Notes under the pieces: generated by a model
What the model saw: the letters and a program-made list of their open reading frames with translations, nothing else
Databases searched by the model: none
What the model was told of the DNA's origin: nothing
Part shown: positions 45,850-45,983 of the stretch, one piece after another
Layout: each line of letters opens with the position of its first letter
Position numbering within the stretch: position 1 is the first letter of the stretch
Source: Streptomyces scabiei 87.22
GTDB taxonomy: Bacteria > Actinomycetota > Actinomycetes > Streptomycetales > Streptomycetaceae
NCBI RefSeq assembly: GCF_000091305.1
Contig: NC_013929.1
Coordinates: 5,146,001-5,210,000, forward strand
Length of the DNA stretch: 64,000 nt
Reading direction: 5' to 3'
Made by a program: the position numbers and the translations under genes

Positions 45850-45983
45850 CACGCGGGAGCTCGGAGCACCGGGCTGAGAGGGCGTTGACCTCCGCAGACG
45901 CGATGTTTCACGTGGAACATCGCCGGGCGGAAATCGCTGCGTCGACCGCTGAACCTGTTACCGGGTAATGCCGGCGTAGGGAG
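45850..45983 (+). promoter_or_regulatory. TPP riboswitch (thi-box) upstream of thiC, containing a parS variant
   Basis: Conserved thi-box elements are present: GGGCTGAGAGGG near 45870, CGCTGAACCTG near 45947, GGGTAATGCCGGCGTAGGGA near 45963. The ribosome-binding site (GGGAG) is at the 3' end of the aptamer, eight bases from the ATG, so thiamine pyrophosphate should block translation. The optional P3 extension here holds a 24-nt near-perfect palindrome (45900-45923) containing GTTTCACGTGGAAC, a one-mismatch parS. Confidence 0.92.
45905..45918. other. parS variant (one mismatch) inside the TPP riboswitch
   Basis: GTTTCACGTGGAAC, centre of a 24-nt palindrome with a single mismatched position, located in the P3 extension of the thiC aptamer. 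Confidence 0.8.

Follow-up and report, generated by a model that had tools for sequence, protein, structure and literature searches.

The leader of thiC raises the question of why a palindrome resembling a parS site lies in the arm of a riboswitch, and whether it is kept there as DNA for the partition protein ParB, as RNA for the fold, or for both. The window analysed here is the whole stretch of 64,000 nt of DNA, and coordinates are positions in this window unless given in Mb. The first-pass annotation had described a palindrome in P3 that is one base off the parS consensus. This description proved exact: the core GTTTCACGTGGAAC occupies positions 45905–45918 of the forward strand, with one mismatch to GTTTCACGTGAAAC. 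The reading favoured in this work, with a probability of roughly 0.78, is that the thiC leader would house a true member of the parS array near oriC in a tolerant stem of the riboswitch.

Riboswitch and likely promoter of thiC

The gene thiC, coding for phosphomethylpyrimidine synthase, was located on the forward strand at 45992–47836 (ThiC, 974 bits at a cut-off of 650). Ahead of this thiamine gene, the TPP riboswitch aptamer RF00059 was detected at 45843–45999 on the same strand (42.8 bits, E 3.1e-7), and the alignment spans the whole model (positions 1–105), covering both the sequence and the structure of the aptamer. With a gathering score of 54.3 for the family, this match is too low to be listed by a default Rfam scan, while a permissive scan of the short region caught it. 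The shortfall is presumably due to the unusual insert in P3, an arm which is variable in length within the TPP riboswitch family.

The P3 arm consists of the 71 nt enclosed by CTGAGA and GAACCTG (45880–45950, forward strand). A 24-nt hairpin was predicted at its tip (45900–45923, forward strand), which encloses the parS core and displays ten pairs, one of them G-U, and the loop ACGU; as DNA it reads GCGATGTTTC-ACGT-GGAACATCGC. The RNA is self-complementary because the parS DNA is. The hairpin was also present in the minimum-energy fold of the whole leader, even though that fold is non-canonical for TPP and its z-score is only -1.66.

The motif TAGCGT (45829–45834, forward strand) is conserved in an alignment of 160 leaders, and for this reason it was considered the likely -10 element of a promoter. 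Transcription would then start at about 45841, placing the parS near +65 to +78. No parS-like site was found in the other two TPP riboswitches of the genome (7.50 and 2.96 Mb).

The parS array around thiC

Sixteen sites with at most two mismatches to GTTTCACGTGAAAC were identified in the window; 14 of them are perfect and the other two differ at one base. In 100 shuffled controls, 0.08 such sites were found on average and never more than one. The second imperfect site lies at 38306–38319 (forward-strand coordinates) and belongs to the class of the thiC site on the opposite strand. The 14 consensus copies counted earlier therefore stand, and the site at 38306 brings the total of the others to 15. 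The flank GAT...ATC of the thiC site was found again at other array sites of the window. Read on the other strand, the 16-mer TGTTTCACGTGGAACA is identical to the natural parS that B. subtilis carries in parB, as given in the accessible part of PMC4333373.

In the whole genome, 29 sites were counted that are either perfect (25) or one base off. All but two (27 of 29, the thiC-leader site included) are located at 5.04–5.28 Mb, in the same region as the parA and parB ORFs, which are found at the left end of the window. The presumed binder is encoded by the ParB ORF at 1073–2170 on the forward strand (TIGR00180, 201.9 bits against 58.45), the start of which was assigned mechanically. From its core and position, the thiC-leader site appears to belong to the presumed oriC-proximal cluster. 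The parS sites of S. coelicolor were reportedly the subject of a 2002 paper. Central parS numbers of 23 for S. coelicolor and 16 for S. venezuelae are given in the accessible text of PMC4852455.

Several other features of the array were recorded. Two perfect parS (129–142 and 1250–1263) lie within the mechanical ORFs of ParA (3–1076) and ParB (1073–2170). Three perfect parS are packed in 88 bp (57340–57427) just upstream of an ORF for a CydDC-like ABC exporter (57394–61023), whose listed start falls between the second and the third of them. Roughly 1 kb away from the site at 38306, the Streptomyces sRNA family Scr3920 (RF02828, 147.7 bits) was matched at 39358–39483. In the genome G137, 46 perfect or one-mismatch parS were counted, compared with 13–35 in 17 other genomes, and those of G137 form dense runs, for example five at 68113–68247.

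Distribution of the site among Streptomyces

The occurrence of the site was surveyed in a sample of 392 Streptomyces genomes. A pattern requiring the core matched 45 of them. Two census patterns were defined by the conserved ends and a range of P3 lengths, with no demand for the parS core. The shorter range matched 140 genomes, with GTTTCACGTG[A/G]AAC in 45, GTTTCACATGAAAC in 15 and GTTTCATGTGAAAC in one; the other 79 are without parS, among them G011, which is a chance match. The longer range matched 132 genomes, 130 of which have at least one parS copy with at most one mismatch and two of which have none. Both ranges share only G011, giving a union of 271 genomes, and the leaders of 121 of the 392 were not captured. 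With these 121 leaders uncaptured, a parS that is perfect or one base off was counted in the P3 arm of thiC in 191 of the 392 genomes, 120 of them confirmed by script on fetched sequence and 71 read from the pattern matches. The core being kept in so many genomes, the alignment of leaders across the genus proposed in the first-pass annotation rules out a strain-specific accident.

The core was present, with at most one mismatch, in all 88 genomes closest by ThiC score. This set is made of 28 carriers from the shorter range, 59 fetched leaders (L172–L230, picked by ThiC rank after excluding the genomes matched by the shorter-range pattern) and G242, a longer-range match. Absence in close relatives together with a freely drifting hairpin had been named as what would speak against the site, and the reverse was found in these nearest relatives. 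The parS-free matches (79 of 140 and 2 of 132) indicate that much of the genus can do without the site. In other genera, a pattern with the single-copy spacing gave no match in 137 genomes of the family sample and in 181 of the class sample, but this pattern is weak: it matched just 7 of 63 and 3 of 16 Streptomyces in the respective samples, and misses two-copy leaders and the CACGGG variant. No description of a parS inside a riboswitch was found in the titles and abstract beginnings of the parS, ParB and TPP riboswitch literature, few subscription journals being covered.

The presence of parS is strongly clustered on the thiC tree, with 6 changes, at least 4 of them by well-supported branches, against a mean of 44.7 after shuffling. 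The outer arms of P3 are common to leaders with and without parS. One old gain followed by repeated losses or several gains would both be compatible with this pattern. A single clade of the parS-bearing rows was rejected by the AU test (p 2.8e-5; 52-row subset, single-gene tree).

The first-pass annotation had also offered that ParB loading could affect thiC transcription. ParB would then regulate thiC, for instance as a roadblock in the leader or because it spreads across the promoter, and the site would be retained for this purpose. The probable location of the site 65–78 nt into the transcript fits this idea, and so do the accessible parts of two sources: ParB of S. venezuelae spreads 2.5–3 kb each way from parS (PMC12511625), and ParB affects expression near parS in S. 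pneumoniae and P. aeruginosa (PMC7022226). The accessible text of the latter also states, however, that genes adjacent to parS were unchanged in B. subtilis without ParB, and many thiC leaders of Streptomyces do without the site. Retention for the control of thiC is considered unlikely.

Conservation of the core and RNA pairing

In 183 fully read leaders, the best 14-mer showed no mismatch in 23, one mismatch in 109, two to four in none and five to nine in 51. Changes were counted by parsimony on a thiC codon tree of 183 rows and 593 codons. Within the core of 132 leaders, 30 changes were inferred versus 178 in the 14 nt adjoining on the left, a contrast which is inflated by the 61 of the 132 leaders that were fetched for their motif. 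The core changes fall on positions 4 (1), 7 (1), 8 (10), 9 (3) and 11 (15), and the other nine positions did not change at all. The parS core in the P3 arm is thus conserved beyond its surroundings. The core is imperfect in 110 of the 132 parS-bearing leaders, whereas imperfect sites are a minority in the array.

These numbers bear on the possibility that a parS was inserted in an ancestor and is now a relic drifting away. Such a relic would agree with the frequent imperfect cores and with the 6 changes on the tree, some of which are possibly losses. Drift should nevertheless have left intermediates, and leaders with two to four mismatches were absent (0 of 183) while nine of the 14 positions stayed unchanged. 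The look of drift is seen elsewhere, in the second copies of the motif described below, of which 64 out of 67 have at most five mismatches. A decaying relic is hence regarded as quite improbable.

Leaders with a single copy have a P3 of 68–80 nt, mostly 71, and those with two copies one of 88–105 nt, in which the second parS-like copy follows 3–20 nt beyond the first (median 19). In many leaders this second copy is degenerate and pairs as RNA with the first; when a palindrome is repeated in direct orientation, its two copies form an inverted repeat as well. The two-copy leader L174, for example, was predicted to fold as a single long hairpin (z -4.1), a more striking fold than that of the P3 arm in the window (z -1.8). 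In L191 the roles are reversed, the first copy being decayed and the second one having one mismatch.

The two copies offer a cleaner test than the contrast with the flank. In 66 two-copy leaders that were not selected by their core (58 of L172–L230 and 8 named loci, L191 excluded), 20 changes were counted in copy 1, whereas copy 2, the strand it pairs with in the RNA, has 76 (p 7e-9, assuming independent changes). Both copies pair at most positions, positions 6 and 7 being mismatched in 44 and 62 of the 66 leaders. Next to the core, pairing is kept: the four core-adjoining pairs are preserved in 56–64 of 65 single-copy rows with several pair types, and for five such pairs 269 of 325 cells are paired, compared with a mean of 242 and a maximum of 253 in 1,000 shuffles.

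The predicted hairpin and these compensated pairs could suggest that the sequence is retained for the RNA alone, as a hairpin or as a sequence-specific element of the riboswitch. This would not explain why the core pairs 1–3, 5 and 6 are invariant among the 65 single-copy leaders while the flanking pairs vary, nor why copy 2, located in the same helix, accumulated nearly four times the changes. P3 hairpins were also found in leaders devoid of any parS, and the core, as detailed in the next section, has the same variants as array sites elsewhere. A role in RNA only is very improbable.

Variants at thiC and across the array

One-mismatch sites were taken from the listings of 13 genomes, one of the 25 sites of G040 missing. 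Within 250 kb of thiC and outside its leader, all 54 such sites fall in three of the 21 possible classes, namely the GGAAC type (35), CACGGG (13) and CACATG (6); these 54 sites are largely orthologous and far from independent, and make about 14 groups by their distance from thiC, as an estimate. Beyond 250 kb, only 2 of 8 one-mismatch sites belong to the three classes. The same three classes correspond to the three main substitutions at copy 1 of thiC. Among the 13 listed genomes, 8 others also have imperfect sites of the class found at 38306, located 7–8 kb upstream of thiC. Since the thiC site of the window is of the GGAAC class, the most frequent one among these imperfect parS (35 of 54), its single mismatch is no argument against function.

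The agreement between the variants at thiC and those of the array would be hard to explain without ParB. A different DNA-binding protein recognizing the same palindrome, for which the place downstream of a likely promoter could suit an operator, is hardly credible in view of this agreement with parS at other loci and of the GAT...ATC flank shared with other array sites of the window.

A proposed double reading as DNA and as RNA

The contrast between the copies and the variants shared with the array indicate that recognition by ParB, and not RNA pairing, probably accounts for the core. In the favoured reading, the core of 14 bp would serve as a ParB nucleation site at the DNA level, while at the RNA level the palindrome would fold on itself, or on the second copy in two-copy relatives, and lengthen P3. 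Selection would keep the letters of the core for ParB, and outside the core mainly pairing would be required. The riboswitch arm would most likely be a harmless berth near oriC for a member of the array. The first-pass suggestion that the array entered a tolerant riboswitch stem is well supported by the conservation in 191 of 392 genomes, by a core held beyond the needs of pairing and by array-like variants.

What computation shows is where the site lies, how well it is conserved, how unevenly its changes are spread and that its variants match those of the array. Binding of ParB to the site, its role as the function under selection and a regulation of thiC left largely untouched are inferences drawn from these observations.

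The thiC arm is not the only hairpin with a parS in the window. A perfect palindrome of 66 bp (14563–14628) is centred exactly on the parS at 14589. It lies between two convergent ORFs, one for a CCA tRNA nucleotidyltransferase and the other for an MFS transporter. In 20 relatives, regions at the matching distance from thiC were inspected, and 15 contained a parS flanked by nine or more perfectly complementary pairs; the sequences of the arms around these 15 parS differ, and their correspondence was judged by the distance from thiC. Given this recurrence in 15 of 20 regions, a fixed parS core on a covarying hairpin tip would occur beyond thiC too. Most other parS of the window are without such complementary arms.

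A bolder reading would be that Streptomyces has a dual-coded part of its centromere, with parS placed repeatedly on hairpin tips (the riboswitch arm of thiC and the terminator-like hairpin between convergent genes), and that at thiC the loading of ParB couples segrosome assembly to the transcription of a vitamin gene, each being able to displace the other. This extended reading is speculative and rather unlikely.

The favoured reading, a member of the array berthed in a riboswitch arm, has consequences of its own. One stretch of DNA is apparently under two codes, a protein site exact to the letter and an RNA stem in which only pairing counts. Both constraints would be separable over many Streptomyces species, which offers a natural experiment on which substitutions in parS are tolerated by Streptomyces ParB and on the freedom of riboswitch arms. 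In addition, thiC is a well-defined metabolite-controlled gene in which effects of chromosomal ParB on transcription could be tested.

Comparison with known systems

Like other members of the RF00059 family, the thiC leader matches the whole TPP riboswitch model ahead of thiC, but its P3 insert holds a conserved DNA site and its score is lower than the gathering score. With the parS array of the Streptomyces ParABS system, as far as it is described in the accessible text of PMC4852455, the thiC site shares the core and the oriC-proximal region; it differs in sitting in a transcribed, structured leader, where it also encodes an RNA arm. The parS in parB (spo0J) of B. subtilis is likewise located within a gene, according to the accessible part of PMC4333373. 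That site overlaps protein-coding sequence, whereas the thiC site overlaps the aptamer of a riboswitch.
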